A DNA stretch of 64,000 nt from Bryum argenteum (Eukaryota; Streptophyta; Bryopsida; Bryales; Bryaceae): positions 3,911,001-3,975,000 of the forward strand of contig CM073321.1 in NCBI GenBank assembly GCA_037043015.1, written 5' to 3'. Below the pieces are notes generated by a model, which saw only the letters and a program-made list of their open reading frames with translations, ran no database searches and had not been told where the DNA came from. Within the stretch, counting starts at the first letter, position 1. Each line of letters begins with the position of its first letter. A program made the position numbers and the translations under genes. Below are positions 11,371 through 47,580 of the stretch, piece after piece.

Positions 11371-11379
11371 ACCCGCTCC

Positions 11380-13160: not shown

Positions 13161-13529
13161 ACAGTCTTGATATGATTTAGAGGACATTGATCGGCATAAC
13201 CTCGTATTCGTTATATTGGGAAATATGCAGGATTTTGGGAGATTGAAAGGGATTTATGAGGCCTAAAAGCTGTACGTTTGGCACGTAAATTGTACAATTT
13301 AAATGACTTGATAACCTAAATATGATAGGGAGATGCTATAAACGTGGGGTTCGCACATGTATTGAGTGCGAGGTGTTGTTGTAAAGAGAAAATCGACACA
13401 AAAGCCATAGTATAAGAGGAGAGTTTGAGAATATTATTGAAATTTCCAAACTTTATATATGATAAATTACTCAAAGAGTAATTAATACATAGTTTATTCT
13501 TTGTATTCAACAGTAATCCAACTATCACT

Positions 13530-15662
13530 ACCTAAGGCGTTCCACCATATGCGATGATACGAGACTTTATGAACGCACGTTGACGCTGACGTGTCCATCC
13601 GTAATCATTATCTTGCATCATAGGGCTATCCAGCAGTCGTTGCAACCGTCATCTTCGATTATCCTCGATGCTTGATTTAGGAAGCGAGTGGCGGCGCGTT
13701 TCGGAAAGACTCCTGGTCGCTTCTTTTACATCAGTCGAGAAACCAAGAGGGGACTGGGGCTCTGAAGGTCCCTCCTGCACATAATGAGTTCAACTCCGTC
13801 TTAGAGATCAATTCCGCAAATTAAGGAAACTACAAGCGCGTAACATACCTATTCATGTATCTTGGGCGGGCATCGAAGTTAGCTCGACTCGAGCTAAAGT
13901 AAGCTCTCATTATGAAAGCATTGTACTTCATACTTTAGGAACCTAAAACCATTTTTATAGCACAGATTACCGCGAAATCGGAAACAATGCTTTGAAAGAG
14001 AGAAGGAAACTAACCTTTGGTGACAAATCTTGAGTAACGTCCACCTCGTCATACAACACGCGATTGGTTCGCCCACATCTATTCTCGATCTGTTTAACGT
14101 TATGACCTACTGAAAGTGACCTCACGGGCGGCGGCGACTTATCCAAGTCACGTGCTTGACAGTCGTCGCCACGGGATCGCTTACCACTCCATCGTCCACA
14201 GACCATGGTGGAGAACTCCATGGTTGATCGAGCCGTTGCGGTGGATCGCATTAATAGACCTCTACTCCGGAGTGTTGGCCCTACTCCTCCCCATTAATAA
14301 ACGAATCTACCAAGCACGACACCCCCTGCGGAACCTATTATAAATGATTGACACGATAATCGACGGATAAACAAACGTCGATTGAGCTCATTCGAACATA
14401 CAATATTCAAAGTACGACTCTAACTACTCTTCACTCTGCTCTATACGATTAACAAAACTTGTTAATTACAATGTAGAAAAATCGAAACCAGGTGAAAACA
14501 AACGAACAAAAACAAAAATGGATGTACAAAGACTCAAGAGAGACAAGAAGAATAGAATCGTTGCTAATCTGACATGGCCCTTAGGATGTCAGCATATATA
14601 GAACAAGTGGCTCTATCATCGTAAAACCTAGGTCGCCCAAAAAGATGGGAAGTGCGGTACTCCTTGAGTGATCCTGGGAACTCGTGTAGCTCTATGAGAT
14701 ATGGCAAAATCTCGTCTAGTAAAACGGAGTCCTCTTCAGCCCTATTGACCTTGGAAGTCCACGAAGGCAGTAAAAGAACATTCTCACTAAGATTTAACAT
14801 GTGCTTAATCGGACTATCGTCAATAAAGAGAGTATTGGCCTCTGTATATAGACCATCATAGCTATTAAAAAGGTGGGCTGACATGGTCTTAAGGAAAATA
14901 TCTTTTTGGGTTCCTGGTTCCTTCATGAAGATAGTTCGGCCCCCAACATTCCGCATGGGCACTCTATCACAGTCTTCTTGACCGATAATTCGTATTGGCT
15001 TAATAGGTTTTATCGGACCAAAGAGATAATCACAAATTGCTTCAGTCGTTGTTGTCATCATAGAACTCCAAACCGTGATAGTGGCGAACGCTGCCAACCC
15101 GGAGAGGAAGTCTTTACAACCGGGCCTTACCCACACAAGTTTCTTCCCCACCTCAGTTGGCACCGCGGCCGAGTGTACTTGGATGTCACGGTTTCTGGAT
15201 CCCTTAGCTTCCCATGTTGGGGAACAATAACAGAGGATCCCATTGAGGTCGATGACAACATTTAACCAAGCTTTGCCTGACTCTCTTGGAATAAAACCTA
15301 TTTCTTCACTAGAATTTTCAGAGACCGTGGCGTTCCTAACCTGGATAGCAAGCACGTCGCAGCAGGACAACATTACTGAGGTTTCTCTGCGAGAGGTTTA
15401 ATAAATTCAAAGACAACATCTTGTAGTACAAATATTCGATGATCTCTAAAGATAAGAATGGATTGATGAAAAGTACCTGGATATCGTCATTGCTCATCTC
15501 GTCATCATCGTGAAGGCCCATTGATCCTAGCGACTGTTGGGTGCAATCTACATCATCACCCAATGTAGGATCATTGCCGAGAAGCGATGCTTTAGTGTAA
15601 TTGGGAGTGTCCTCGGGAGGATGCGAGTCATGGCGAACAAGATCAACAAATACATCTTCCAT
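13530..15662 (-). CDS. FCP1/NIF-like phosphatase-domain gene, copy A
   Basis: The first exon (15662 to about 15478) begins MEDVFVDLVRHDSHPPED and ends DDIQ at a CAG/gtactt donor. The main exon (about 15373-14564) is an HAD-fold FCP1/NIF domain: VVIDLNGILCY (motif I), VWVRPGCKDFL, ITVWSSMMTTTT (motif II region), then LFIDDSPIKHML (motif IV). In active FCP1/SCP phosphatases motif I is D-x-D-x-T/V; here the second Asp is Asn (D-L-N), so catalysis is doubtful. A later segment (14.25-13.97 kb) carries STMEFSTM and RVLYDEVDVTQDLSPK, and the last (about 13.70-13.53 kb) ends DNDYGWTRQRQRAFIKSRII. These tails recur in copies B and C, so they belong to the gene. One palindrome lies in an intron near 13.88 kb and another near 15.81 kb, upstream. 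The exon joins between the FCP1 part and the tail were not resolved. Confidence 0.6.
13877..13899. repeat. Single palindrome in FCP1-like gene A
   Basis: A copy of the window's palindrome core (TTAGCTCGA, centre C, mirror) lies alone between the last two coding segments of the FCP1-like gene. The corresponding place in copy B (about 37.77 kb) holds an equivalent single palindrome, so it predates the duplication. Confidence 0.7.
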
Positions 15663-15805
15663 GACCGGAGTATCGATATCTTCATCCTCATCCTCTACAT
15701 CTGTTCAACGCAATACAAGGTCATTGAAATCAGGCAAACACAATGAAGTGTGGTGGAAGGAGGAGTGTGAATCCGAACAGAATGCCTATGTGGCTGATGG
15801 GCAAT

Positions 15806-15828
15806 TTAGCTCGAGTCGAGCTAAAATG
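15806..15828. repeat. Single palindrome between FCP1-like A and ParB-like A
   Basis: TTTAGCTCGA, centre G, and its mirror occur just beyond the 5' end of the FCP1-like gene and before the 3' end of the ParB-like gene. Confidence 0.7.
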
Positions 15829-16840
15829 AACGTGGTAACGCCTATATTAATTACAAAAAAATGTTTGAGAGTTTGTATCAAAAAAAGTGTTCTACCGGTT
15901 TTTACAACTCAATAACTATACAGTATACCCATTATCTAAGAAGAAGTGGGACCTGTGGTATTCTCTTGCACCTCAGCCTCAGAGTCAATATTCTGCGGAA
16001 TTGACGTAGGTGGATGCGCTGCTGGCTCGACGTTAGCAGTGGCTGGAGGTGCAGTGTCAGGAAGAGGGCGTTGCTGTCCATGGAAAGTACCTGCATCTAA
16101 ACTTTGAGTACTAGGCACTGCAATAGCAGAAGGCAGAGGAGGAGGAGGAAGTGCAGAAGGATTTAAGCCACCTAGTGCTCTACTAAACATATCCATTATA
16201 TCCAGGTGTCTTTTGTTAGCCTCCTGTTCGCGGCGAGCGTCGAGCGAAACTCATCGACCATTCGACAATCGCGGCTTGCTCTTCCTCAAGTTTCTTCTCA
16301 GGTTTTGAAATCACCGCAGCCTTCGAGAACCTTGACTTCGCGATTCCTTGGCCATTGCGAGCCTTTCCGCTTTCGACTTGCGGAACCCCGCACGCTACCG
16401 AACCGCTACGCGATTCCGGTATTTGCGCAGATTGTTGGAGCCGTCCCCTCGAGGTTCTTAAAATCGGGCTGTCGGATCCGCACAGGAGAGGCGTCTACCT
16501 CAGCCGACCCTGCTAGGCGCGCACTGCCTTCCGCTTCATCTTCCCCGGCGCTAGAGGCAACTTCTTCCACATCATCATCATCTTCTTCTCCTTCACCGTC
16601 ATCGCCCTTCATACTATCGTCATCAGCTTCCACCTTAGCTTTCCCCTTCAAGAGGGCTCTCCCAATGATAGGGTAGGTGTTAGCATTGACAGGATATCCG
16701 TTGATGCTGAAGTCATTCGGATCAAGATTAACACCAATCTGATATGCCTGGTGTATGTCAACGGAGTCGTCCTTGTCGGCGATGACGAAAGATTCAGACG
16801 CTATCATCTGCAGGACGACGATGAGAAGTCAGACCAAGCC

Positions 16841-17213
16841 ATTTAGCTCGATTCGAGCTAAACTACATGCTACGAAGGAAATGAACGAGTTCATAACTTA
16901 GAAGGAAATCAGAAGTATCAGAGATATCACGTAGTTTAGCTCGACTCGAGCTAAACTACATGTGCAGGAATCCATGTGCAGGAAGCATGCAACTGATTGA
17001 GTTTAGCTCGATTCGAGCTAAACTTCAGTCTAAGGAATGCAATCAAGGTTATGAAATAAGTGCGGCCTGAAGGACATGAAATGACATAGTTTAGCTCGAC
17101 TCGAGCTAAACTATATTACGATCATTGCAGACGAACCCGGAATTCAATGAGGATTTAAAATGATTCAGAGAAGGGAACGGTAATGACACCGTTTAGCTCG
17201 AGTCGAGCTAAAC
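16841..17213. repeat. Five palindromes inside an intron of ParB-like gene A
   Basis: Copies start at 16841, 16934, 17001, 17089 and 17191 (centre bases T, C, T, C, G), spaced 67-102 bases. All lie between the donor at about 17220 and the acceptor at about 16808 of the intron that splits the methyltransferase-like SAM-binding region. Each is half-site GTTTAGCTCGA (first copy ATTTAGCTCGA), one base, and the mirror. Confidence 0.9.
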
Positions 17214-18647
17214 TGGGCTGTATCTTACCATGCTTGCTGTAACGGCTTTTGATCCGGAATAGACAAGGCAGATAGACTCATTGGGGCCGCAGAAAAGCTT
17301 GATGACTTGAAGGTAGAATTCCATTTTCAGCTCGTTGGGGAACATGCTGTACTCCATCTCATTGTACTTTCGGGGCTTCTCGTACAGAATGTGTTTGGGG
17401 GCTGTGTAGATAGTTTTTATTTCCCCGCGGATCCTCACGGATGTGTGCTTGAGGAAGAGAAGTCGCACGGGCTCCATTGCCTGCCTACTCTTAGCGGCAA
17501 ACCCTCCAAGATGCTCGTTGGCGGCAGGCTCGTAAATGGACTGGATCAACTCGTATTCCACACCTTCGAAGAAGGAACTGGTCTTGGCGAAGTGCTGTAC
17601 ATGCTCAAGGTCCTTCTCATCCCCACATATGAACAGCCAGACAGGAACAGCCTTGAGAGAAGGCCTATCTTGTCCTCCGAGAACGTTCATGAAAATCTCA
17701 AAGAACGGTTTCTCGATAGTAGATTTCGCCTTTCCAGTAGCTCCAGGAACGAGTCTGAAGTCGATGATCCCGAAATTGATGTCCTCGCCTTCTTTACTCC
17801 AGGAACCTGCTTCCCAGTCATGAAGCTTCATCGGGTTCTCCCTTTGGAAGAACCGAGTATGAGCAATTCCAGCAGTAGGTTGGAATTTCTTTCGGACTTC
17901 AAGGAATACGCGGAAGAACTCTTTGGCGTATGGCGAGAGAACCTCGCAGTTGCTATTCCGGTGCATAGTCGCCTTCTGGTTGGCGTAGTATGACTCCGGA
18001 ACACCCCACTCGAGAAGCACTCGCTTCGACGCTTTTGTGACGTGGTAGTCCTGCTTAAATTTCTTCCACGCCTAAACGTCAAGTTCGTCGCCCTTGAAAA
18101 TACCGAGCGTAGGATCGATCTTGTGAAGCTAGAGCTGGGCGATAGCTTTGCGCTTCAATCGTTCTACGTAATCCTTCCATACGTAGCAGTCCTCGAGATG
18201 AGACTTAGGCTGCTTGAGCACAACCTTCGGGTATTTCAGTTTCCTTGATGGCCCTGACTCGTTCAAGATGTGCCTGCAGAGCTTCTCGTGGTCCTTCTCG
18301 GAGAGGTTGCCAAGGAATTTAAAAAACTCTCGATTGAGAGTTGTATCTCTGTCCGGAAGAAAGCCCTCCTTGTCCTTGAACTTGGATCCGTCCATGGACT
18401 CGGGGTCGACGAGGTCTCCTTGGGCGGCGCAAGTAATCACAGATTCCCAGAGCTTATACAGGTTCTCTGGTGCAGTGATGATCTTGATCTCGTTAGTAAG
18501 GGTAAGCAATTTCTTGCCGCCCTTCTTGTTTAGTTCCCTTTGATGATTGACAACGTCGATCATTGAGAACCTCTCGCTTACAGCCGCGAAGAATTTCTGC
18601 AAAATCGAGTACAGGTAATTCGAGTAAGAAACGACTGTGGCTATATA

Positions 18648-18803
18648 ATTTAGCTCGAATCGAGCTAAACCAAAGGGATTCATGTTCACAATAATGCATG
18701 TGCAGTTTAGCTCGATTCGAGCTAAACTTAATTGCATCTGCAGTTTAGCTCGACTCGAGCTAAACTTAACTGCATCTGCAGTTTAGCTCGAATCGAGCTA
18801 AAC
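18648..18803. repeat. Four palindromes inside another intron of ParB-like gene A
   Basis: Copies start at 18648, 18704, 18743 and 18781 (centre A, T, C, A), spaced 56, 39 and 38 bases, the tightest spacing in the window. They sit between the donor at about 18834 and the acceptor at about 18600. Confidence 0.9.
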
Positions 18804-20313
18804 ATTTGACACAGTGGTTCAGAAATGCTTACATCGTAAGCGATTGCTTGGCTTGCAGCGCGCTTTGGCTTTATTCGTTGCCCTGCCACCCCAGTTGCAT
18901 CACGTTTTGGTGGAGGACACCCGAACTCAACCCACACTTTCCGAGCGGCAAGGATATTCGTTGCCCACGTCGGCTTAAACTGAGCGAAGTGATTCACTCT
19001 GTTATAAAAAGCTGAAATTTTGCGCAGCTTGTCCACATCTTTAGTCCAGACTATGTACGCATTCCAAGTCCGGAAGTCCTTCTTAATAGGCTCGGGGACG
19101 GTGTCTTTCTGAATCATCTCCTTCGACGCAGTGACGCTGTGCTGGCCGTTAATGATGTAGAATTCGCAGTCCGTCATATCCCGTTCGTCCTTGGGATTGA
19201 ACTTCAAGTCGGGCATGACGCACAGAGTCTGCTTGTGTGACCGGTCCGGCAAATTAATGAGGTAGTTCAGGAGGTTGGTTTGCCCCCTCTTCTCGAAGGC
19301 TCGGATTGTCCACGACGCTGGTGCTTCCTTCATCTTCATGGTGTCAATCTCCAATTTCCGCTGGGGATTATTTTCGAAGACGAATGCGTCTTGGCAGTCC
19401 GAAAAGAATTTCTGGTATATGACATTGCAGTTGGTGTAGTCAATGTCTTCTACCTTGTCGACAATCATAGGGATCTCTGAGACGGCGTCGTTGATAGCGT
19501 TTGCCAAATCCTCTTCTGAGACCGAGCTTGTTGCGCCTCGCGTCATCGCCTAGCTTCCTCGACCGTCTCTTTTGAGGCGATGACAATCCGGGGTTCCAAC
19601 TATTCGCCCCGTGGATGTTACCCTGGGGTTGATGGCCGGGACTCGTGTGGTGGTCCTGCTATCTATGGGACCCCCGTCCCCGGTAAAAGGCCCGAACGCT
19701 CGAAGAGAGGTCGCCGAGCTACTTGTTTTGCTTTTGCCGCAACCGATGCCTCGAATGATGGAGTTGACGACGTTCCTGAGCTTGAAGGACAGAGCTTTAG
19801 CTTTGAGCGGCCCATCGTTCTTCGACCTCCACTTCCCATCAAGGATCTCAGCTCTGAGAGTGGATTTGACTTCGTCAAAATGTGATGCCTCTAAACTCTC
19901 GACCATTGCTACAGAATCGAAGGGCGTCGCTACTGTGTTGACGGCTATGGTGAAATTATAAGGCGTCGCCCCTGGAGAAGAGCAAATGATCTTGATCACC
20001 TCCGGTGACTCGCAATCAAGCTCGGTGATTTTCGTGTCGACATCGATCGTCATCGGCTCAGCGATAGGCCCCTCGTAGCTTACAGCGACCGTAAGGTGTG
20101 ACGTATGCGCAGCCCAAAGCGCTGTCCAGTTTTTGACCTTGGTTGCGTCCTTGAATTCGTAGCAATCAAGGTTCATGGTATCATCGCCATCATCGTCATC
20201 ATCCACCGGTGCCCTTGGCTTGAAGAAGTGGGCGAGCAAGCCCTTCATCCTCAGCTCACTGCAGTAGTCATGAGATTTTTGAGATTAGTAATGTGCGCGA
20301 GTTCGATGCCATA

Positions 20314-22251
20314 GTTTAGCTCGACTCGAGCTAAACTGAATAGAATTCATTAATCTCTTATGTTAATGTTTAGTTTAGCTCGAGTCGAGCTAAACTACAT
20401 AGTCGAGGGTCTGAAATATGAATATTGTATCTCGTTCCTCTGAACATTATATCCACTCTTGTAGGGTCACAGCTTAACCAAGTTACAGGATGTGCGAGTT
20501 CATGCCTTAGTTTAGCTCGAGTCGAGCTAAACTCCATACTTGTAATTGTCTCATGTGAACATTTAGTTTAGCTCGATTCGAGCTAAACTTACTCGACTAA
20601 GGTTAGATAAGAAGGGAAATTGAGGGTTACAGTCTAGCTCGAGTCGAACTAAACAATATTACAGTATGTACAAGTTAGTACCTAAGTTCAGCTCGACTCG
20701 AGCTAAACTGAACAGCTTGCAATTGTCCCATGTTAACATGAAGTTTAGCTCGATTCGAGCTAAACTTATTAGACTATGGTTAGATGTTAATGTTAATATT
20801 AGCTTACTATACTAAGGGTCACAGTTTAGCTCGAATCGAGCTAAACAAGATTAGAGAATGTGCGCGAGATTACCTTTGTTTAGCTCGACTTCTGCTAAAC
20901 TCAATAACTAGCAAATTTCTTATGTTAACAATAGGTTTAGCTCGATTCAAGCTTATCAAATTTACAGAGGGATTTTGTCACTTATTAAGGGTTTCAATTT
21001 AGCTCGACTCGAGCTAAACTTAGTTACAGTTTGTGCACGTTAGTAACTTAGTTTAGCTCGACTCGAGCTAAACTCAACAGCTCGCAAGTGTCTCATGTGA
21101 ACATGAAGTTTAGCTCGATTCGAGCTAAACTTCCTAGACGAAGGTTAGATGTTAATGTTAATGCTAACGTACTATACAAAGGGTCACAGTTTAGCTCGAT
21201 TCGAGCTAAACAAGATTACAGTATGTGCGAGATAAACTAAAGAGCTAGCAATGGTCTCATGTGACTTTTATGTTTACGTAGTTTCGAGCGTTACATTTGA
21301 ATCTAAGATTAGATATTAAGGTTAATTCTAAATCTATAATGGACTCAGTTTAGCTCGAATCGAGCTAAACTCAACTGAGTTACAGTATGTACGAGTTGGA
21401 AGCCTTAGTTTAGCTCGACTCGAGCTCAACTCATTAATTTTTATTGCTCTTATGCGAACATTTAGTTTAGCTCGAATCGAGCTAAACTTCATAGCTTAAG
21501 GTTAGTTATAATCAAGTTTACTATCAATTTTAAAACAGGTAAATTCTAACTAATGTAGGTTACAGTTTAGCTCGAGTCGAGCTAAATCAACTACAATTGT
21601 CATGAGTTGGTCAGCGTGTGTAGTTTAGCTCCGCTCGAGCTTAACTTAAAATATTTTAATATTCTCTTATATAAACGTTTAGTTTAGCTCGAATCGAGCT
21701 AAACTTTATAGTCAAAGGTTAGATATAATTTCAATTAGTACTATTTTCAATAGTAGAATTTATCGTATGTTATGTTTGGTTTCAGTTTAGGGTCACAGTT
21801 TAGCTCGAGTCGAGCTAAACTGAGTTACAGTTAAGGCGATTTGGATGCCTTAGTTTAGCTCGACTCGAGCTAAACTGAATAGATTAACATAGAGAACGTG
21901 TAGTTTAGCTCGATTCGAGCTAAACTTAGTTACCATTTGAGCTAAACTTAGTTATCATTACGTTTTTAATGTCTTTCTATTCAGGTACATTTTAAAATAT
22001 TTAGGGCCACAGTTTAGCTCGAGTCGAGCTAAACTTAGTTACCATTTGCCTGGGTTGGATACTATAGTTTAGCTCGACTCGAGCTAAACTAAATAGAATC
22101 CTATATTCGCCTATGCGAACGTGTAGTTTAGCTCGAATCGAGCTAAACTTCATACTCTAAGATTGGATAATCTTGTGTTTTTTATCTCGTTCTTAACCAG
22201 GACAATTCTACATACTGTCAGGAGCTTAGTTTAGCTCGACTCGAGCTAAAC
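20314..22251. repeat. Palindrome array A1, about 27 copies
   Basis: About 27 copies of the 23-bp palindrome (half-site GTTTAGCTCGA, one centre base, mirror) over 1.94 kb, mostly flanked by A on the left and T on the right. Spacers are 30-90 bases. The array is a higher-order repeat of about 160-230 bases holding three palindromes: one after GGGTCACAG (centre often G), one after a TTAGTACCTTA-like spacer (centre C) and one after CATGTGAACATGAA-like sequence (centre T or A). A few copies have decayed, for example those near 20880 and 20935. It lies directly upstream of the ParB-like gene, and may be an intron of it if the candidate exon at 22.3 kb is real. Confidence 0.92.
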
Positions 22252-22323
22252 TTTCAGCCTCTCAGTATCCATTTTTACAGAGTTAGAGGTGGTTTCAGCT
22301 TTGCGAGTGATTTCAATTAGCAC

Positions 22324-22399
22324 CTTTCTCCCATTCCAGCCATTTCTGTAAGCTGGAAGGTCCAATTTCCTGATGGTCGTCTTCGGCCTTGTCGTATGT
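22324..22399 (-). CDS. Candidate 5' exon of ParB-like gene A
   Basis: A 76-base open segment follows a GTTGTGCAG acceptor, encodes TYDKAEDDHQEIGPSSLQKW then LEWEK, and ends GAAAG/gtgcta. If joined to the exon at 20.26 kb, array A1 would be intronic. The phases do not fit directly, so an extra exon or decay must be assumed. Confidence 0.3.
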
Positions 22400-22409
22400 C
22401 TGCACAACA

Positions 22410-24030
22410 TACGAGCCTACGGTTTTAAAAAACAAGCAATAACAATCTACAAACTTTGCTGCGATTCTTAGTTTGCAAACTACGCTGTCATTACAAACTG
22501 GTTTCTAAATACTATTGCTAGAATCTCAAACTACCAAATCTGCTGGCACTAAATTGAGCACATTAAAGCTTCTTAACAGCATTTCAAATGTCTGATCATT
22601 CACAGTATTGAAAGACTTCAATCTAGCTTCAATCTAGCTACTAACTACATCCTTGGATAATATTCCAGGCAAACCACATATACAATATACATGCAGCCGC
22701 TTGCAATATTGGAATATCATGCGTGAAAGACTACTACACCTCTTTGAAAAAATTCATAGATCTATTACAACAAAGCTCCAAAACATCAGAACGAATTAAT
22801 GTGCACAGCATTGCTATTCCTGCATATCTAAAGAATCTAAGATGCAGTAGACGGAAGCTCAAAACATGAAATCATCATCGTCACATACACCAGACGGACC
22901 TCTTCATCAATCATCTGTCTTTCGACTTCATCGACTTTTATACTCGCGAAACTATCTATCGGAGCGCAATTACATTTTCATATGCTTAAAAACAACGAGA
23001 TCGTTAATCAAGCACTGTGCAGTACAGCAAAAAATCCACATTTTAGCAGTGGTTGAAGAACGAGCTGATCGGTACAGATGAGAAGAAATTGATTCAAAGA
23101 CCTGTTAGACTGAAGCTGTGATTGAATTATCTAACGATGTCTAAGGATGTCGTCCTGAGGTATCCATACCATTCCAACCCATAAAAACTGCAAACACTAC
23201 ATTCCTTCCAATTAGCTCGACTCCAGTCTGTGCGCAATATTACCTTAGTTTAGTTCGACACATTGCTTGACACCCTACACCCTACAGAAAAAGCTTGAGC
23301 AAATTGCAAACTTGGAAAGAGACTTGAAAACCCAACGTACCTCCTGTGAAGCTGTGGAACTCCACCTTCGACACGGCAAAGGTACTTAGCGGCGCTACCC
23401 TCCACAGCGCTCACCTTGAAAAGCGACCCTCCTAGCAGTGCGACGCTCCTCCAACAGCGCTCCACTCCAAACGGGCTCCGTCGAACACCAACCTCCTTGA
23501 ACAGTGTCGCTCCAAAAGCGCCTCCTCTCTCCCAGCAGTGCAAACCCCAACAACTAACACGCAAAACTGCGAAAAGCTACACCAAAAAGCTACCTCACTA
23601 CTGTAACCACGAGCTGCAAAAAAACGCTGAAATGGAAATCACTACACCGAAATCAAAAGACGCTGAAATCGAAATCGCTACACCGAAATCGCTGATACTC
23701 GCGCGCTACGCGAAGCGCCCTAATCGAGAGAAACGATAAATCAACTTTGCGAAAAGCAGAGAGGGAAAAACTCACATGCAAAGCGGAAATGCAGGAGCGA
23801 AAAAGCAGGAGCAAAAAAGCAGGAGCGAGACTGAGCAGAGGAAAAACAAAAACACGAAACTCAGCGTGACAGAAAGGGAGTGGGAGGTGAAAGGCGGCGC
23901 TAGTCGAATAATGATTATATCCAATCATTTTAACTACTGCCGAGGCCATCATTTTTACTGCCGAGGCTATCATTATTGCACGACAATCATTTTTTAAAAA
24001 CTTAATTTCTGAAACCATTTTTCACGTTAA
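22410..24030. other. Probable 5' flank of ParB-like gene A; no clear gene
   Basis: Mixed-composition DNA with no supported coding exon. The part from 23.38 to 23.90 kb is richer in GC and has short repeated words (GCTGAAAT-GAAATC, ACACCGAAATC at 23.63-23.69 kb) and a run of AAAAGCAGGAGC-type repeats at 23.79-23.83 kb. A leader or promoter region is plausible. Confidence 0.35.
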
Positions 24031-24034
24031 GTTT

Positions 24035-24645: not shown

Positions 24646-24649
24646 TTGT

Positions 24650-26280: not shown

Positions 26281-26293
26281 ATTGAGAGTTTCT

Positions 26294-26377
26294 GGGTTTA
26301 GGATTTAGGGTTCAGGGTTTAGGGTTTAGGGTTTTAGGGTTTAGGGTTTAGGGTTTAGGGGTTTTGGTTTAGGGTTT
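26294..26377 (+). repeat. Interstitial plant-type telomere repeat
   Basis: About eleven copies of the 7-base word TTTAGGG or single-base variants (for example GGATTTAGGG, TTCAGGG and TTTTAGGG) occur in one strand orientation, embedded in AT-rich DNA. This is the plant telomere repeat, either an ancient break-repair insertion or a fusion scar. Confidence 0.85.
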
Positions 26378-27280: not shown

Positions 27281-27284
27281 GGCT

Positions 27285-29492: not shown

Positions 29493-29592
29493 TACATGAC
29501 CTCGCAAAGGACCTGTACTGTACAAGGAGTCCTTATATCATTAATTTTAGAGACTTCGATGTGCTTGATGGCCTTTCTTTTAACTCGTTTCT

Positions 29593-33886: not shown

Positions 33887-33889
33887 AAA

Positions 33890-36100: not shown

Positions 36101-36109
36101 TCCAACATT

Positions 36110-37110
36110 CCAACTTCGGGAGTAGTTACTATCTCGCAATCTCATCGCCATTGTAAGCTTCCGATGCTTCACGTTAGCAAACGCCTTAGATAACTCATGC
36201 CATCTTATCATCAGTTGGGCAATACCACAAGTTCACCTCTCTATTGTCCAACTTCTCACGAATAAAGTGGTGTAGCAAATCAATGTATTTTATATAAGAC
36301 ACCTGCTTGGGGTCTTTTCTAATTGCAATCCATCCTTGGTTGTCACACATAATTCTTCTGGCTCACCATTGCATAGACCCAAGATCCTCTAATAGTTGTT
36401 TAAGCCACAATATGTCCTTTATCTAATGGCTTGTTGCAAAGTACTCCACCTTTGTACTAGACACCGCTATTGTGGATTGCCTCTTGCAACTCACACAAAA
36501 TTGTACTATTTTCTACAAACAACACATACTCCATCATAGACTGGCACTCATTCACAATACCGACCCAATCCACAGCATAATTTCCCTTAAACTCAATGTC
36601 CTTACAACCAAGGCACAATTTAAAACCAATGGCACCTTTACCTTTACTAAGTGCATCAAGATGCATTTTACCACCATTAAATGTTGGAGTCCAGCCTCTG
36701 CCAGAAACTAAATTACCATGCTAATCAGAAATACAACGCAAGTCCTTGTAGCATCCATTTTGTACATCAACAAACTCACCACTGCCTTGTATGAAATGGC
36801 TTTGATTTCTTCTTCAACCTCTTTAAACTCCTTATGCGAAAGGAGTTTCACCGATCTTACACTTTTGTATGTTAAATTGCTTAAGCACTTCTTCAATGTA
36901 CTTGCCTTTCTTAATGGTGATAGTGTGCATTGAGATTCCTCTCAAAGCCAACATTGAGACAGAACTCCAGAGTCCCAAGCTTACTTATCTCAAACTCTTT
37001 CCCAAGTTTGGCCTTCAACCACCCCAAAACCGCATCATCACCAGCCAAGATGATCAAATTTTCTACATAGATGATCACAATCAAGAAAAACTCTCCTCTT
37101 AAGCCCGTGT
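36110..37110 (-). mobile_element. Ty1/Copia retrotransposon fossil (RT end and RNase H region)
   Basis: The minus strand encodes fragments characteristic of Copia polyproteins, in order: the C-terminal part of reverse transcriptase (IIYVDN-like region, LGWLKAKLGKEFEISKLGTL), the connection (EFKEVEEEIKAISYKAVVSL) and RNase H (GFKLCLGCKDIEFKGNYAVD). It is a broken, old fragment; gag, protease, integrase and both LTRs were not recognised. Confidence 0.7.
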
Positions 37111-37434
37111 TTGTTGTATTAGAAATTATGCACGATTTTGCAAGATTGAGGAAGGATTATGAAGCTTGAAATTTGTACAATTTTGATGGCATTAGTACCA
37201 AAATATAGGTGAACCATGCTATAAAATATAGGTAAACCATGTATTTTAGTGCTTGTTTCGAGGGCTAAATTTTGGTTGGAAAGTGCAGAAGGAGACAAAA
37301 GCCAAAGAAGTAAGGGGGAGTATTAAAAGATCATTCAATTTTTTAAATTTTATATATGATAAAATTCTCAAAGAGAATTGAATATATGGTTTTGTCATTG
37401 CAATGAATAGTTTTTCAACTATCACTGACTAGGA

Positions 37435-39400
37435 CGTTCCACCATATGCAAAGATACAAAATTTGATAAATGCACGTTGACGTTGATGTGTCCACCCGCA
37501 ATCATTTCCTTGCATCATAGGGCTATCAAAAAGATGTTGCAACCTTCTTTTGCGATCATCCTCAATGTTTGCTTTAGGAAGTGAGTGGCGGCACGTTTTT
37601 GACAAAATCTTTGTCACTTCCTTTACAGCAGCCAACAAACCACCATGGTTCTGAGAGTCAAAAGGTTGTTCCTACACATGATAAATTCAATTCTATTTTA
37701 GAGTGAATTATGGAAATACCAAGCCTAGAGCACATTCATTCACGTACCCTTAGAGAGCACTTAAGTTAGCTCGACTCGAGCTAAAACAAGCTCTCGTTAT
37801 GAGAGTATTTTAGCTCATGCGTCCACATCTATTTTGGATTGGAGAAACCTTATAACCTACTAAAAGGAACCCCACGGGCCAAGGTGATTGTTCCAATTCA
37901 CATAATTGACAACTTGCCACAAGGTTGTTTAGTACTCCATCATCCACAACCATGGTCGAGAAATCCATGGTTGACTTAGCCATTGCAGCTCACTGCATCA
38001 AAAGACCTCCACTCTGAAGTGTTGGCCCTACTCCCTCAATGAATCTAATAAAGCACAAAAACCCCCCTACGTACCCTTTTGTGAATGATTGAAATGATAA
38101 TCGACAATAAACAGCCGTTAGTCAAACTCATACAAAACATACAATATTCAAATTTGTACTACTAAGTAACCTTTACTAGAATCGAAACATAAGATACAAC
38201 TTGCTATTTTTAAGCTTAATAATAAAGAGGGTTTAGTAAAACTGAAACCAAAGAAAGTCATGTATATTATTCGTCAGACAAGAACAAGACAAAAGTTGCT
38301 AATCTGACAAGGCCCTTTGGATTTCATTGTATATAGTACACGTTGTCATATCATCGTAAAACATAGGTTGTCCAAAAAGATGTGACGTGCAATACTTCAT
38401 AAAAGAACCCGAAATCTTATGAAGCTCTAAGAGGTATGGCAAAATCTCGCCTAGTAAAACAGAGTCCTCTTCACCCTTGTTGACCTTCTAAGTCTAAGAA
38501 GGCAGTAAAAGAACATTCTGACTAAGATTCAACATGTCTTTAATCGGACTATTGTCAATGAAAAGTGTATTGGCCTCTGTATATAGACCATCATAGCTCT
38601 TAAAGAGATGAGCTTACATGGTCTTAAGGAAATATATCTTTTGGGATTTCTAGTTCTTTCATGAGGAATGTTCGGCCCCCAACATTCCACAGAGGCACTC
38701 TATCACAGTCTTCTTGACCGAGAATTTGTAAGGGCTGAATAGGTTTTATTGAACCAAAGAGGTAATCACAAATTGCTCTTGTTGTTGTTGTCATCATAGA
38801 ACTCCAAACCGTGATGGTGGCAAACACTGCCAACTCGGAGACAAAGTCTTTACAGCTGGGCCTAATCCAGACAAGTTTCCTCCCCACATCAATTGACACC
38901 GCGGTCGAGTGTACACTAATGTTACTGTTTCTAGATCCCTTAGCTTCCTATGTAGCGAACAACAACACAGGACGCCATTGAGGTCAATGACAACATATAA
39001 CCAAGCTTTGTCTAACTCTCTTGGTACAAAACCTATACCTTCACTAGATTAATCAAAGACTGATGTGTTCCTAACTCCTATAGGAAGCACGTCGCAACAC
39101 GCCAACATCTCTGTGGTTTCTTTCCAATAGATTTAATAAACTCAAAGACAACACCTTCTCGTACATATCGATGGATTTTATAAATGAGCGTGGTTAAATG
39201 GAAGTACCTGGATATCCTCATTGCTCAGCTCGGCATCTTCACGAAGGCCCATTGATCTTAGACTATTGGATGCAATCTATATTATCACCCATTGCAGAAT
39301 CATTGCCGAGAAGCAATGCGTCAATGTTATTGGGTGTATCCTTGGAAGGATTCGGATCATGGCAAACAAGATCAACTAATACATCTTCCATCACCAAATT
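37435..39400 (-). pseudogene. FCP1/NIF-like gene, copy B (broken)
   Basis: Nucleotide similarity to copy A is obvious along its length (compare 38.62-38.94 kb with 14.9-15.2 kb). The best segment encodes GRKLVWIRPSCKDFVSELAV, FATITVWSSMMTTTT and ILGQEDCDRVPLWNVGGRTF. The tail also survives: STMDFSTMVVDDGVL near 37.97 kb and GNDCGWTHQRQRAFIKFCIF at 37.45 kb. The frame is broken several times, so this is a pseudogene. Copies A and B are duplicates of one ancestral gene, and both retain the intronic palindrome near the 3' end. Confidence 0.7.
37765..37787. repeat. Single palindrome in FCP1-like B
   Basis: TTAGCTCGA, centre C, mirror; positional equivalent of the copy at 13877 in gene A. Confidence 0.7.
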
Positions 39401-39534
39401 ATCAATATGTTAATTATCATCGTCTTCATCTGCTCAACACAATACAAGCTCATTGGAATCAGGCAACACAATGTAGAATAGAGGAGAAGAACATGTAATT
39501 CGTTATAATGTTAATATTCAAACTCTCAAAAACA

Positions 39535-39800
39535 GTTTCAAGGCTAACTTCAAGGTCAGTTCAGGACCAGTTTGAAGTCCAGGGCAGGGTTAGTGAAGGT
39601 CTAAGCCAGTTTCTGGTTTAGTTCAACATAAGTCTGGAATCTAAGACAGGACTAGTTTTGAATCTAAAACAGTTCTAGGACTAGGCTAAGACAAGTTTGT
39701 GATCCAAGGCAGGACCAGCTTTGAGTCTAGTCCAGTTCTAAGTCTAGACCAGGACCAGTTTGAGGTTCGGGCCAGAACCAGTTTGGAGCCTTAGGTAGGA
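39535..39800. repeat. Degenerate minisatellite, ~25-28-bp unit
   Basis: About ten imperfect units of the type CCAGGACCAGTTTGAGTCTA follow one another just beyond the FCP1-like copy B. The flanks on both sides share the sequence ACGTAATTCGTTATAATG-GTAATATTCAAACTCTC, seen at about 39495 and 39823, so the repeat may sit inside a short direct duplication. Confidence 0.7.
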
Positions 39801-40266
39801 TCATTGTTGAGTCTAGAACACGTAATTCGTTATAATGGTAATATTCAAACTCTCAAAAACCAATCGACCTAAATTCCAACATATGTATCGAGCAAAATGC
39901 GGGTAATGTAGAGCTAAAGTGAATACAAAAGATGATGAAAGTAGCAAACGCAAAATGCATTCCGACAGCAATTTGCAAAAAGAGCACGATAAAACGATAA
40001 ACATAATTAAACTGGGAATCGACAATCAAAGGCAAAAAATTACAAACACTTGAATCGTTGACCTTTAAGGCACACGACTGTACCAATACTTAACTACGGA
40101 TATCAACCGCTAGCAAAGATAAGAGATAGGACTTCTACGTGCATTTCTAAGATGATTCTATTGGCAAAAAGTCACAACACGATAAATTAATTGCTCAAAT
40201 TGCACTCAAGTCATTTAGCTTCGCTAGAGCTAAATTGGCATGCCCAAATAAACTACGGATGTCAGG
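39801..40266. other. Non-coding spacer
   Basis: No gene. A decayed palindrome (ATTTAGCTTCGCTAGAGCTA) lies at about 40213, just beyond the 3' end of the DUF7869-like gene. Confidence 0.45.
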
Positions 40267-42911
40267 CTACTCCTCTCCACCGTTGAACCGCTCACTACTT
40301 TGTTTGATGATGTCGATTTGACGCTCCGATAATGAAATAACCGGACGACGAGAGCCAAGTTTTGCACTTGATTTCCATGATGTAAAAATAGCATCAGCAT
40401 GAAGCCATTCCGGAATGTGAGTGTCTTCAACTGTCCATTTGAAAGTCTTCTTTGTATCCCAACCAACATAGGTTTCCTGAACAACACTATTTTTTGATGC
40501 AGGTTGAAAATATTGCATTTGAATACAGCCTGGATAGTTGTGATTAACATCGAAATCAGTTAAAGCCCTAGCAATCCAGAAATGACGAGCATCGCCATCG
40601 GCTGGACGTAGAGCTACAAAACATCCAGCAAAAACATCTCGACCAACCCGAAACGACTCCCTTGGTCTATCACACAACCGTCCGATAAAGTGCGGATCAA
40701 GCCCATATTCCTCTCGCAATTTGCCAGTATTTAAGAATTTTCGTGTCGCAGGTACTCAAGTTAAAGGCCAACACCCGTTCTTCAAAAATGAAGACACTTC
40801 TATAGGCTCAACCAACGCAAGCTTCACAGCTCGCCAATAGCAAATAAAAAATTCATGACGCCGACCAAATTCTCCAGATATTTCCTCCGCACATGAAGTC
40901 TCCCACATTTTAATAAACCCTCCAATGCCTTTTACAATGTCATCACGGTTCTTCATGGGAATGGGCGCCAAAGGTTTCATCTCACCTATAGGTAACAATG
41001 AATTTCCTGTACTTCTATCCTCTTTCCACAATTTTATACCTCCATTAGTAGAAGGTAACCACTCATTGTCTGTGCATAACATCTTATACTGCATCATGGA
41101 CCATCCATTGTCATGCTTGTAAAACTTGAATTGCTGACCCTCCGAATGCCCAACTAGAATTTCATCTCTAGAACCAATGTAGTCTTTGATATAACATTTG
41201 AAGTCAGGTATTTCGTCTATTAAATGAGGAATGACTGGCAAAGACTTTGCTTCCATAAATGACTTCATCAACTGAGGAAGTGTGAGAAAGTCATTCTCTT
41301 TGAGATTCATGCTCCAACGTCCAAAGAGGGCGTCAATATCTTCATGGGTATGTCCAACTAACAAGAAATTGACATATACTTGACGGAATACACCCATGTG
41401 TACCAGAAGAGACCAAAAGCAAAACATAAATCTATTCTTGTTGTCAGAAGCTGGGTTGTCTAGTTGCACATGCAGGACAGGAGGTAGAGGCTCCGCCACC
41501 CCAGAAACTTCACTATTAGGAAGAAGAGAGTTTAAACACCCTTCTTTTCTAAACAATATAGCTTCAAATAAAGGTAGCGACTCTGAATTTGCGAATAATG
41601 GTTTCGAATACGAGATCGAAACACCTTCTAGATCTCGTAAAAGCTTTAATATTGATCCAACATTGTGATTGCAATCACTTGGATAAATATCGAGCCCATA
41701 ATGAGCATACCGGGCATCGCTATGCCCGTGCGCAATCATGCCAGTCACAGCAATTGGAAGCTTCATCAATGCATCATTTGCCTTTGTCTTATGTGAAAAT
41801 ACAGGGCACGCAGTCTTTGCATGATCCATTTTGTCATGTATTATACAAAGTACATCTCTCGACCTCTGAATAGAAAGAGATCAATTTGAGTAATAATACT
41901 CACGATGCGTTTCTTGATGATGCAAATGCTCCTCTAGCTTCCTGATCTACATATTGTCTTCACATGAATCAGGTACCATTGACTTGATCATTGTCTCCAT
42001 CCTGTCACAGGTTGAGCAACGAGCAAAGTTGTCCCCCGGCGCCTTCTTTGAATAATCAGAACGTTGAAATCAGAACTCCACTTATATGTTGCTATCCACG
42101 CGCGCAAACGTCAATGCCTTCAGTCGTTACCATCATCGTGCCGTCTAGTGCCTGATGAAAACAATTATGAACATCTATCTTGAAATGTGACTTAAATTTC
42201 AAACCCGACGCCTTGTACATCTGCTTTCGGAGAGCCATAATTTTGTCTCGAGCGAAAGCTTGGCAATAGTTCTTGCAGCAGCAAATCTTGCTTGCAACCA
42301 AGTTGACTGAATCTAACGTCAGGAGCTCCTCTTCTCTCTTGGTCCTTAAGAATCGAGAGTTTCGTTGTTCCAACTCATACGGTCGCACCCCCTTCCTCTT
42401 TGGATGATCGCGGGCATAAACAGCGACGTTAAATTGATCAACTCGTAAATGATCAAGTAGTGACCAACCCTCATGGATAGCATGGCTGAGCTTCCAACTC
42501 CTAGTTCCATATATGGTCTCAGCAGGTACGTAGTCAAAATTCAAGCACTTCACAATCTGCACAACTACTTGATCTTTACATATGGGCTCGTCATTACTCT
42601 GTAACATTCCGTCAGCATCCAAAGTCTAACAAATGCCTTCACCTACAACGTCCCCTCTATCGTTGAGAAGTGTCACAAATTTTGTAACCCATTTACGTTT
42701 GGGCAGTCGAGGCAATCTTTTAAATGGTCCGGAAGAACAAGCTCGGAAGGGACATCCAAGTCCTATACGACCACAACCAAAGATGAATTAGTACAAATGG
42801 ATAAACTAAAGACAAAAACATATTAAGCAGAATTAGTAAATCCACTACCTCAGAAAAAAGACGCTGACAATCTCCGTCGCCATCGGATTCACTCAATTCC
42901 ATCATTATCTG
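40267..42911 (-). pseudogene. DUF7869-like transposase-like gene, copy B
   Basis: A short exon (about 42911-42849) after a GCATTCAG acceptor encodes MMELSESDGDGDCQRLFSE and ends at GAG/gtagtg. The 42.6-42.1 kb part contains SKICCCKNYCQAFARDKI, the Cys-rich block also seen in copy A. The long open part (41829-40756) contains the three conserved blocks MDHAKTACPVFSHK, VQLDNPASDNKNRFMFCFWS and VGHTHEDIDALFGRWS, then MLCTDNEWLPSTNGGIKLWK. The final part (40719-40267) reads GLDPHFIGRLCDRPRESFRV. Compared with copy A the gene is broken and incomplete in its N-terminal half. Palindrome array B1 begins about 100 bases upstream of the first exon, as array A2 does for copy A. Confidence 0.6.
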
Positions 42912-43007
42912 AATGCCATCAATAAACACACAATCATAAGTAATCACTGGTAAATTAATATACCTGCAATCAAAATTGTGTATGACCATTGAGGAAATTG
43001 TATGGCC

Positions 43008-43435
43008 ATTTAGCTCGACTCGAGCTAAATGGTCATGAAGATATTTGTTCATCACGCTAACCTCGGAGCAGTTGTAGCTGGATGACCATTTAGCTCGAGT
43101 TGAGCTAAATGGTCTTCCTTTTACAAATGCTTCGGTGTTTGTTGATGACCAAATATCATGATGCCCATTTAGCTCGAGTCAAGCTAAATGGTCATCAAGA
43201 TAAGTGTCCATCACGCTCGCCTCGAAGCAGTTGTAGCTGGATGACCATTTAGCTCGACTCGAGCTAAATGATCCTCCTACAATCATCTCCCAAGAAAACT
43301 CAAATTATACTTAGGTGGATGACCATTTAGCTGGAGTCAAGCTAAATGGTCTTCCTCTGAATAGTTCAACTAGACGAATTCGTGAACTCGAAGCATTTGT
43401 AAGTGGATGCCCATTTAGCTCGACTCGAGCTAATT
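43008..43435. repeat. Palindrome array B1, six copies at ~79-80-bp period
   Basis: Copies start at 43008, 43088, 43167, 43247, 43325 and 43413. The first four intervals are 80, 79, 80 and 78. The core is TTTAGCTCGA, one base, mirror; the flanks extend the palindrome outward to GACCA and TGGTC in the best copies, giving up to 29-31 symmetric bases. Spacers repeat GTAGCTGGATGACC and CATCACGCT-type words. It precedes the DUF7869-like gene B. Confidence 0.92.
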
Positions 43436-44000: not shown

Positions 44001-44476
44001 CGAGCAACACCAAGCGGGATGAAAAACGGCGCCAAAAAAGAGCACCAACTGGGCAGAGAAAGGGCGCCAAGATTTGAGTAAAAGCGATGTGGTTGGGAAC
44101 TTTGGGAACTTTGGGAGGAACGGGGACATTATGGGAGAGTAAAAATCATTTGAAGTTAAGTCCCCGAGAAATTTGGAATATTTCTAAAAATAGAAATTAC
44201 ATAATTAACACGTAATTCGTTATAATGGGAATATATACTGATTTTGGTAATTAGGGAGACTTCCATTTAGATCGATTCTAACCTGATTAGTTACCAAATC
44301 ACTAAGTTTTTTCTGATAATGATGAATTTTCTCAATAAAAAAAAGACAATCAAAGAAAGGAAATTATAATGCAAGCTAAGAAATATGCTCCCCCAAGAGA
44401 AAATTTTATGATATAAAAGCACAAATACAATTTATTGGTGTGATTGTAGACCTCCAACCAGTAGGCATTATATTAT

Positions 44477-47094
44477 CTACCAATCACGACGTGGCGCAGA
44501 GGAGGTATCACCACTAGAATCTTTCTTAAAGAATACAGGTTCCTCACTACGTGTGTATTTAAAGAAGGCAGGTTCGTCCATCTCCATAAGCGCACCACTT
44601 CTATGACGCTTTGATGCATGTCTCCATAATAGACGGTGAGTCTCAGACGAAAATCGTGCAGGATGAACGCGAGTGTTTGCCCCAAGAGATAAGGAGCAAT
44701 GAGCCATTGTATTTGGCAAGGAACTATTTAGCTCGAATCGAGCTAAATAGGCACGGCCATCTACGACGGAGTTGCGAAATGCAGCTTCACCTTGGGGTGC
44801 CGCTGCAACCGAGGTCATCTCACCGATTCGATCATGGCAAGTTGCAATACTTGGTTTAGTCTGAATAGGGGGACTGTCTACTACACCGTCATCGTCATTA
44901 TCCATGTCCTCCTTCGTGTAATCTACAGCCGACGCGTCGTCCGGAGCACAGTAGATCAACCGTCCCCGAATTCGTTCCGAGAAAGTTCTCGAGTCCTCAC
45001 TTGTAATAGAAGGATCGGACACTGTTGAAGGACCAATTACAAGATTTGCTTGCAAAGCACATGATGGAAGTGGAGAGAGCTGACGTCCAACGGCAACAAC
45101 CTGATTTATAACCACACCCATTTTAGAAAGTGAGTCCATGACACTAAGTGCAATGAAAAAGGTACACAATATAACAACGCATTTAATCAAGTATGTCGAG
45201 GGGGGATTCACCAATCGATCTACAATTTATCTCCATCTAAGCAACCGATAAACATAAGGTTTCTAGGGTAAAAATTTAAATATTATACCAATGATAAAAG
45301 CATTTAAGGCAAATTCTTCTCAGTGATTCGGTCGTGATTCCACAAATATGGAAGATTACGGCTCAAGAGCTTATACAACTTTGAGTCGTTGGACATTTCA
45401 TTGTGCGTGGGTCTACGATGGCGCATAGTCTCGTGAAAATTCTCAGGACCGTTCAAATGCACGGGAAGACATATCACGCCTATCCTTTTTAATAACTCGG
45501 ACTTTGGCTCCTCCGGACAGGAATGGTTCCACGAAAAGTGTGTTCTTTGTGGGAACCGCAATGCAAGTCTCAGGCTTGGAATCGACAATGACCAAGTTTT
45601 CGTCATTGAAATTGGCACCCTTCCTAGGATACAACCGCTGCCGAGGATATTTGCGCCCTTGATGTTCGTTGCTCAGGAAGGAATGAACGTGTCAGCATTG
45701 TTCGTCTTGTTCGCCATGGCCGTCACGTCCAAAATCTTGCCTATGTCCGAATGCCACACAACATGGGCTTTCCACGTCTGCAGGGCAAAGATCTTTGCGT
45801 CGTCAACCTTCTTGTCTCAAATCAACTGTTTTGCAGCCTCAACGTGGTGCTGCCCATCGATAATCCGGAACCGACAAGTTTGGACCATAATTTTCCAATC
45901 CCAAATCTCAGGCTCATCTACAATCTTCGGCATAATGATGATCATTTGCCTGAAACTAACATCGAGTGAATTCATCAAGATGTTCTTGTAATGGGCAATT
46001 CCAGTCGGTTCCAATGATCTCATGATGAATCTTGGTTGTGCAGGGTCGAGCAGGTCGATCGACACGTCAAGCGGATTGTCGCGACCGAAGACATAACAAT
46101 CTGCACAGTTGCCCCAATAGTCCTCGAGAGCCTTCGTCGCTTCCTTATACTTGATCTCCTTCTCCGAGACAACCACATTCATTGTGGGGTTCATGAACGT
46201 AAGTGCGCTACCGGAGGATTTGCTCCTTTTGGAGCCAGAACTCGAAGAGATCGGGTTAGCCCGCTTCGATCCCTGCTCGCCTAGACTTCCCTCAGGAGTG
46301 CCTAAACCCGACGGAGCATTTTTGAATGGAGCCGGCAACAGTTGATTCCCCGTCCGTTTCATCGGAGCCTTCCCTTTCTTCTTCGCAGTCTCGAAATCAG
46401 TCAGAGCCTTCCAAATCTGTGCCGTGTATGGAATGTACGATCTGACGAAGGCCTTTGGCGATGAAACATTGGGTAGCAATCTGGTGTCGAGATGATGCAG
46501 CTAAGTGGGATCGCCCTTCCTGACCATATAATTGCGGATGAAGTCATGGAAGAATCGGACTTTATTGGGCGGAAACACAATGGTGAAGACAAAATCTTTG
46601 ACCTCCACTGCTTCGAACTTGATCAGGAGGTATGCGTCTCCATAAGTAACAAGCCCGATGAAGGCATCAAGACACAGAGGAAAAAATGCCCCGTGAGACC
46701 CCGATTGTTGGTAGAAGAAGAAATGGGTCTTGTTCATCGGGCGAATAGACCTAGAGACGATGGAATTTTTCTTGGGGGTCCACAACCTCCCTCATTGCGC
46801 ATCCACAGCAATAGCTGCAAGTGGATCGTTTGTTGTTTCGAGTTCTACTGGTTCAAGGAATCCCTCCAGTGCTTGCATGTTATAAGTGACCTGTGGATAA
46901 CAAATTTACAGAGGGCGAATTAGCTCGACTCGAGCTAAATGGACACATCAAATGGGCATATGGATATGAGGTGGAGTTTTACTTCAGGAACAAGACTCTT
47001 ACTCCTCCGCTTCCATATCGACTTCAACTTCAGGCTCGGTAGGTGCATTCGCAGCCATCTGACAAATTTTGGCAATGGTTTTGGTTCTCGGCAT
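44477..47094 (-). pseudogene. ParB-like domain gene, copy B
   Basis: The likely first exon (47094-47003) begins with an ATG and encodes MPRTKTIAKICQMAANAPTE then a short acidic end, at a GGA/gtaaga donor. A further segment follows a TTATCCACAG acceptor at about 46890 (MQALEGFLEPVELETTNDPL). The 46.78-46.5 kb part encodes a beta-rich region (YLLIKFEAVEVKDFVFTIVF), equivalent in position to the N-terminal domain of copy A. The ParB-like core is QTCRFRIIDGQHHVEAAKQL near 45.83 kb, followed by LQTWKAHVVWHSDIGKILDV and TNNADTF, matching the post-core region of copy A (FRTWNAYIVWTKDVDKLRK). The 45.2-44.5 kb part resembles the Pro/Ser-rich C-terminal tail of copy A. The methyltransferase-like segment is not obvious here. 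The frame is broken several times. Confidence 0.55.
44729..44751. repeat. Single palindrome in the tail of ParB-like B
   Basis: TATTTAGCTCGA, centre A, mirror. It falls within an otherwise open minus-strand segment, where it would read ARFELN if translated. Confidence 0.75.
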
Positions 47095-47580
47095 CACTAT
47101 CATTCAACAAAAAATAATCACATGTAAGATTCACAAAGGCGGTATAACATCATAATGATCGTGACGATCAAATCCGGGAAGTAATTTTACATGTCTTCAT
47201 TTAGTCGCGAGATCATTTAGCTCGACTCGAGCTAAATGGGCTTGAGCTGGATTGCTATAGCTTGCACACTCTTACAAGCTCATTTAGCTCGACTCGATCT
47301 AAATGAGCCGACCTCAATTACATTTACCTTAACCTGCGAGACTATTTAGCTCGACTCTAGCTAAATGGACTTGATCTCAATACGAGGATCCAGACCATGT
47401 AGCTCAAGTCGAGCTTAATATGCTTGACCCTGAACCTAATAGTAAGTCCATTTAGCTCAGCTCGAGCTAAATGGGCTTGACCTCTAATAGAGTTAAATGG
47501 TCTTGACGAGCTAAATGGGATAAATGAGTTCAAGGTACTAAATGGGCTAAACGAGTTAAACGAGCTTAATGGGCTAGACC
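46918..47580. repeat. Palindrome array B2, about six recognisable copies
   Basis: Copies start at about 46918, 47215, 47282, 47344, 47397 and 47450, with flanks CA...TG (CATTTAGC). The first lies in the presumed first intron of ParB-like gene B; the others lie just upstream of its candidate start codon. From 47.48 to 47.58 kb the array dissolves into half-site debris such as GAGCTAAATGGG and GAGTTAAACGAG. Confidence 0.85.

Follow-up and report, generated by a model that had tools for sequence, protein, structure and literature searches.

Gene content of two palindrome-bearing loci in Bryum argenteum

A 64,000-nt stretch of the Bryum argenteum genome (GCA_037043015.1, contig CM073321.1, positions 3,911,001 to 3,975,000; hereafter the window, in whose numbering all coordinates are given) contains two loci at which copies of one palindrome accompany genes of three kinds: ParB-like, DUF7869 and FCP1/NIF-like. 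The first of these loci is a single DNA transposon, which we call E1, measuring 19,718 bp between 24-bp inverted ends (13198-32915). Its left terminal inverted repeat (TIR; 13198-13221, + strand) and its right one (32892-32915, - strand) match at 23 of 24 bp, and a 4-bp target duplication, GCAT/GCAT, lies directly outside them (13194-13197 and 32916-32919). When we searched the window for inverted pairs of 24 bp with at most 2 mismatches, 5-30 kb apart and with an exact 12-mer half in common, the E1 ends were the only pair without palindrome contact, two further rows being the same pair displaced by 1 and 2 bp. TIRs and a target-site duplication, which together characterize a TIR DNA transposon, are both present in E1; at locus 2 left ends only were found. 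As part of the overall explanation developed below, we tentatively regard E1 as a TIR DNA transposon that may once have been autonomous.

A previous sequence-only reading had proposed an element family that uses a ParB-like protein together with its own site arrays. The mobile element is borne out by the inverted ends and the target duplication, and the pairing of genes with arrays holds as well, whereas a strict ParB identity of the protein does not. The ends, the target duplication, the intron positions and an extent of the palindrome beyond 23 bp are additions to that earlier observation.

The gene set of E1 comprises an FCP1/NIF-like phosphatase gene and a ParB/DGQHR-like gene on the - strand and a DUF7869 gene on the + strand. 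The phosphatase gene (14564-15704) matched Pfam NIF with E 2.4e-14 on 14564-15397, and the E1 blocks 13378-13931 and 14070-15748 share 74% and 78% identity with locus 2. The ParB/DGQHR-like gene (16406-20248) is predicted to consist of exons at 20248-19622, 19549-18833, 18596-17229 and 16807-16406, separated by GT-AG introns of 72, 236 and 421 bp, with exon lengths that preserve the frame. For the DUF7869 gene (27568-32489), a short exon 1 (27568-27590) and an intron 1 of 2,022 bp (27591-29612) are predicted, followed by coding stretches with stops at 30537 and in 30067-30152, where an intron may lie.

Locus 2 is a mosaic of older, broken relatives of E1. Its leftmost part (37101-39476) consists of a left end, which aligns with that of E1, and the FCP1-like block of an older copy, with a broken gene on the - strand. 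A broken DUF7869 gene (40270-42625, - strand) has 6 palindromes on its 5′ side (43008-43435), and a left-end-like sequence lies at 44207-44234 (+ strand), with more copies at 39490-39517 and 39817-39844. An open reading frame (ORF) with a DDGVVDSPP stretch noted by eye (44477-45226, - strand) precedes a remnant of the ParB/DGQHR-like gene (45676-46500, - strand) that has two in-frame stops and, on its 5′ side, 6 further palindromes (46918-47472). Two 44-bp left-end-like sequences, near-identical direct copies 327 bp apart, occupy 39490-39860, in the interval that separates the FCP1 block from the DUF7869 gene.

The DUF7869-like protein named earlier at both loci was recovered with Pfam PF25273 (E 1.3e-41 at locus 1 and 1.6e-43 at locus 2), and both of the motifs quoted for the ParB-like domains, IINGQHSVTASKEM and RIIDGQHHVEAAKQ, are present. 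The FCP1-like protein was likewise recovered at locus 1, whereas its counterpart at locus 2 is a broken homologue, 78% identical in DNA, with a NIF match (E 5.2e-4) below the cut-off.

Number and placement of the palindromes

Scanning both strands of the whole window with RTTTAGCTCGANTCGAGCTAAAY at up to 3 mismatches gave 77 matches, 49 of them perfect, and no match was obtained in 100 dinucleotide-preserving shuffles of the window, in agreement with the roughly 80 copies of a 23-bp palindrome reported earlier. The matches span 13877-47472 only, the rest of the window being empty at this threshold, and relaxation to 5 mismatches gave 78 palindromes, 63 at locus 1 and 15 at locus 2. All of them fall within the two loci that carry the ParB-like, DUF7869 and FCP1/NIF-like genes. 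The palindrome extends over about 25 bp at locus 1 and over 27 bp and more at locus 2, taking the form AGTTTAGCTCGANTCGAGCTAAACT in E1 and CCATTTAGCTCGANTCGAGCTAAATGG at locus 2 (the two types of site are also written AGTTTAGC and CCATTTAGC). No other repeated exact palindrome was found in the window in a scan with 8-bp arms and loops up to 6, which passed over arms made up of fewer than three different letters, and a scan of viral_contigs for the palindrome returned 0 matches.

Within E1, one palindrome lies downstream of the FCP1-like ORF (13877-13899), matching in position the copy at 37764 in locus 2, and another lies upstream of the FCP1-like gene (15804-15826). The sequence scan, set against the predicted exons, places palindromes in two introns of the ParB-like gene, 5 in intron 3 (16841-17213) and 4 in intron 2 (18648-18803). 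Array A, with 27 palindromes in units of ~200 bp (20314-22251), lies 5′ of the ParB-like coding region; since a search for an upstream exon recognized none, this array may occupy either a 5′ intron or the promoter. Array B, with 25 palindromes (27885-29492), lies entirely within the predicted intron 1 of the DUF7869 gene. The E1 palindromes thus occupy introns, 5′ regions and gene flanks, and none of the 63 overlaps the 7,029 bp of predicted coding sequence, which is suggestive rather than strong statistics because the copies form 6 clusters. At locus 2 the arrays again lie 5′ of the DUF7869 and ParB-like genes, as in E1, and palindrome 44726 lies inside the ORF with the DDGVVDSPP stretch, whose status is uncertain. 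Full palindromes begin ~680 bp from the left end of E1 and ~3.4 kb from its right end. We also observed a lone perfect half-site, TTTAGCTCGA, at 32846-32855, and, between arrays A and B, a 93-bp tandem repeat array (24072-24644) and a degenerate TTTAGGG telomere-like run (26275-26378).

In En/Spm (CACTA) elements, which have TIRs, element proteins bind repeated motifs, and Sola elements combine TIRs with a 4-bp duplication. If the DUF7869 protein is taken to be the transposase, the palindromes could by analogy with the subterminal motifs of En/Spm be its binding sites, serving transposition or the autoregulation of transposition. The DUF7869 gene adjoins the right end of E1 and has array B in its first intron, the half-site at 32846 is only ~60 bp inside that end, and DUF7869 is better conserved between the two loci (55% identity in the core) than the ParB-like protein (~30%), with conserved Asp residues in this two-locus comparison. 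However, the distance to the nearer end is 3.4-9 kb for 61 of the 63 E1 palindromes, many of which are intronic, and E1 differs from En/Spm in that its ends do not start with CACTA and its arrays are not subterminal. Nor did the searches identify DUF7869 as a transposase: no PDB relative was better than E 1.8, and the AlphaFold model, built with a 3-row alignment, had a poor pLDDT of 32. We therefore consider transposase sites an unlikely explanation, and a role of the palindromes in transposition possible, though the arrays are far from the E1 ends. No relatives of DUF7869 were found in viral_contigs, and a search of open-licence papers for DUF7869 gave none.

The position of arrays 5′ of the ParB-like and DUF7869 coding regions at both loci, together with the length and symmetry of the sites, would also suit an operator-like circuit, in which a dimeric element protein uses the arrays to repress or activate its own promoters, as in KorB or parS systems, with no role in silencing. 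Against this, the two arrays, 1.6-2 kb long, hold 52 sites, and introns 2 and 3 of the ParB-like gene 9 more, which would exceed the need of promoter operators, and such autoregulation seems to us rather unlikely.

Constraint within arrays and joint change between loci

In array B, compared over five units of ~212 bp holding 15 of its 25 palindromes, divergence was 18/600 (3.0%) in palindromes and 288/1484 (19.4%) in linkers; in array A, compared over nine units holding 25 of its 27 palindromes, the corresponding values were 296/2180 (13.6%) and 1733/4282 (40.5%), with the reservation that the cuts defining most tandem units were placed at palindromes, a choice that may bias the comparison somewhat in their favour. 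No rotation of the column set was as low as the palindrome columns, among 216 for array B and 301 for array A. CpG observed/expected in the array linkers was 0.79-0.92 against 0.85 for the window, which is nothing unusual and gives no sign, in composition, of protection from methylation.

Between the loci, the inner 21 bp of the palindrome are constant and the outer arms are altered jointly on both sides. The outer pair is G..C in 51 of 63 E1 palindromes and A..T in 14 of 15 at locus 2, in keeping with the two half-site variants described earlier, and the flanking pair is A..T in 47 of 63 and C..G in 9 of 15, respectively. After palindromes were masked, the arrays of E1 and locus 2 had no similarity at E<=0.01.

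Tandem units of ~200 and 212 bp, and the capacity of perfect palindromes to fold, raise the question of a sequence-independent cause, in which the copies act as RNA or DNA hairpins or have spread by unequal exchange or in a satellite-like manner without any protein. The palindromes nevertheless resist divergence within units, all four bases occur at their centre, and the two loci have the same core despite unrelated linkers. Furthermore, of the core pairs that had changed, 28 in E1 and 16 at locus 2, none was compensated (0/44), indicating that the sequence, not a hairpin, is kept. We judge a cause of this kind improbable. The enhancer-like placement of the sites, intronic and 5′, might instead point to a host transcription factor that binds the palindrome, but a site of at least 25 bp is long for a plant transcription factor, and within one genome the two elements carry different outer arms, so that we hold this to be quite improbable.

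Affinity of the ParB-like protein

Pfam and NCBIfam scans of the ParB-like proteins gave no match at E<=10. In profile comparisons (hhalign, local mode) against alignments of families that we assembled from prokaryote genomes, the pair of ParB-like copies aligned best with DGQHR/DndB (Prob 54%, E 1.2e-4; reversed control E 0.31), followed by GmrSD_N (Prob 5.8%), and ParB_N aligned in register at 0.6%. The DGQHR score of the locus-2 protein was equalled by none of 2000 shuffles, whereas the ParB_N score was equalled by 475 of 2000 for locus 2 and 362 of 2000 for E1; with GmrSD_N, 65 of 2000 shuffles were as good for locus 2, and no alignment was obtained for E1. When 1313 sequences (1311 of them other ORFs, real and spurious) were ranked with the DGQHR profile, the locus-2 protein came 4th, scoring like the ORFs from loci fetched for GmrSD_N, which make up the other 14 of the top 15. 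On the basis of these profile, shuffle and ranking results, the ParB-like protein is likely a divergent representative of the ParB/Srx superfamily, on its DGQHR/GmrSD side, and not ParB itself. The domain called ParB-like from the letters alone can accordingly be retained as a likely member of that branch, weakly for E1, and not as ParB in the strict sense.

GmrSD_N is a known member of the ParB/sulfiredoxin superfamily (PMC4619093, also the source of the DGQHR and FxxxN motifs), and our proteins have a F.II(D/N)GQH box in common with its DGQHR/DndB and GmrSD_N (DUF262) branch. They differ from this branch in having S or H for the final R of DGQHR, in an inexact FxxxN and in weak overall similarity. 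In the two copies the box reads DGQHH and NGQHS, with an N..N pair in place of exact FxxxN. A further difference is that the gene here bears introns and lies within a eukaryote-like transposon.

Canonical ParB was rejected, as there was no Pfam or NCBIfam match, ParB_N did no better than shuffles, and the GERR box is absent: the GERR(xxA) position reads GQHSVTA or GQHHVEA, both GERR arginines missing. Among PHROGs, phrog_1033 ('ParB-like partition protein') topped both copies with insignificant E values of 0.20 and 0.26; membership in this family was also rejected, a purpose-built alignment giving hhalign Prob 0.2%; the E1 score was reached in 76 of 2000 shuffles, and locus 2 yielded no alignment.

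Many long palindromic sites near the gene are likewise a feature of canonical ParB/parS and of KorB of IncP plasmids, and the KorB operator TTTAGCSGCTAAA has the outer TTTAGC...GCTAAA in common with the palindrome. A palindrome array beside a ParB-superfamily-like gene, and the rank of phrog_1033, could accordingly reflect a parS-like system for partition or nuclear retention, with a CTP-dependent ParB clamp that loads at the arrays and spreads. In contrast to canonical ParB/parS, however, E1 is an integrated DNA transposon, inserted in the chromosome with a target duplication, its protein has no significant profile match, and no ParA-type companion was found, with no Pfam ATPase in the ORFs scanned and, across the two loci, no Walker A pattern of ParA or any other type among 122 ORFs of at least 60 aa. 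Nuclear segregation, one of the functions suggested earlier, finds no support in these observations, and partition is the least likely of the rival explanations; we consider it highly improbable.

Relatives of the ParB-like protein were found neither in viral_contigs nor by tblastn against plasmids; phmmer and hmmsearch against PDB gave nothing convincing, and PADLOC, NCBIfam and Rfam gave nothing. We also considered the C-terminal half of the E1 protein as a degenerate N4/N6 DNA methyltransferase, from a GSG-motif-like stretch seen by eye near 17300, and rejected it: hhalign placed the stretch as expected, but its Prob of 0.1% was below the 0.3% obtained with the sequence reversed, and there was no support over shuffles. 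The N-terminus of the protein, MKGLLAHFFKPR (start 20248, - strand), resembles by eye a PCNA-interacting, PIP-box-like motif.

A possible counter-silencing role of the sites

VANC21 of the Arabidopsis transposon VANDAL21 acts on a 9-bp motif, YAGTATTAY, which according to the sections of PMC5735166 used here is arrayed in one orientation in introns, intergenic and terminal non-coding regions, has grown by tandem repetition and varies between subfamilies; for anti-silencing by VANC we also drew on portions of PMC10398659. Like VANDAL21 as described there, E1 is a multi-gene transposon with arrays that are intronic or upstream and (mainly) outside coding sequence, that expand as tandem repeats and whose motif varies between related subfamilies; the restriction of arrays to the non-coding parts of the element, a VANC-like feature, was found in E1 (0 of 63 in predicted coding sequence). 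Unlike the E1 protein, VANC has DUF1985/DUF287, with no ParB-type domain described for it in those sections, and no such Pfam match indicating VANC homology occurred in the ORFs scanned here. The E1 site is moreover a palindrome of at least 25 bp, E1 is not a recognized MULE, and its anti-silencing function is a prediction from sequence.

Because the anatomy of the sites, their tandem growth, their constraint and their variants match the targets of VANC21, we infer that the palindromes are dimeric sites of an element-encoded protein, likeliest the ParB/DGQHR-like one, that acts in cis for counter-silencing, a reading to which we give a probability of about 40%. Each palindrome would be a double-stranded site recognized by a symmetric dimer of a protein of the element, most likely its ParB/DGQHR-like protein. 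The many intronic and 5′ copies would allow dense loading of this binder on the non-coding DNA of the element itself, and the loaded protein would keep the element genes transcribable, as VANC does on VANDAL21. Among segregation, silencing control and transposition, the functions offered by the sequence-only reading, silencing control best fits this anatomy.

Several observations weigh against this interpretation. The comparison rests on a sample of two loci; at the cluster level, 0 of 6 E1 clusters in coding sequence (36% coding) is weak evidence by itself; and the sites could instead be bound by the DUF7869 protein or by a host factor. The assignment of the E1 protein leans mostly on its GQH box: 4 of 2000 shuffles equalled its DGQHR score, it ranked 25th of 1313 with the DGQHR profile, the single full-length protein reached only Prob 2.2% and E 0.021 against DGQHR, and AlphaFold gave no usable model (pLDDT 31 with a 3-row alignment). 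The ParB-like gene of E1 has two in-frame stops, both in exon 3, so that this copy is dead. At locus 2 a right end was searched for and not found, and the gene order differs from that of E1, so the locus is not readable as one intact element. Finally, 10 of 18 core mismatches in the locus-2 palindromes fall in the 4 of 20 core columns that correspond to CpG, so these sites were probably methylated for a time, which is as expected for an old, silenced copy.

If the palindromes do serve counter-silencing, sequence-specific anti-silencing would have evolved more than once, here through a protein unrelated to VANC whose symmetric sites are much longer; VANC was the one sequence-specific transposon anti-silencing system met in the open-licence papers surveyed. 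It would also be a case of a ParB-superfamily protein working on palindrome arrays inside a eukaryotic nucleus, and could offer a programmable means of directing chromatin opening. A more specific version, that a eukaryotic transposon recruited a DGQHR/ParB-superfamily loader as an independent counterpart of VANC, nucleating at palindromes in introns and promoters and spreading from them across the element, which would thereby stay unsilenced, with site and protein co-evolving between families, strikes us as doubtful. No description of this system was seen among the open-licence papers listed by our searches.

Other features of the window

Immediately left of E1, at 11270-12593 (+ strand), lies a third, distant FCP1/NIF-like remnant, with pieces ~41% identical; the ORF that comes after it (12228-12593) contains a DDGVVDSPP stretch resembling the one at locus 2, and no palindrome is near. 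By eye, ORFs at 9162-10487 (+ strand) are like a Mutator-type transposase, with no Pfam match, and those at 54351-57026 (- strand) resemble a hAT-type transposase, with no Pfam match above cut-off. A 1.58-kb inverted repeat at 50916-52491, 97% identical to its own reverse complement, is a foldback-type element.

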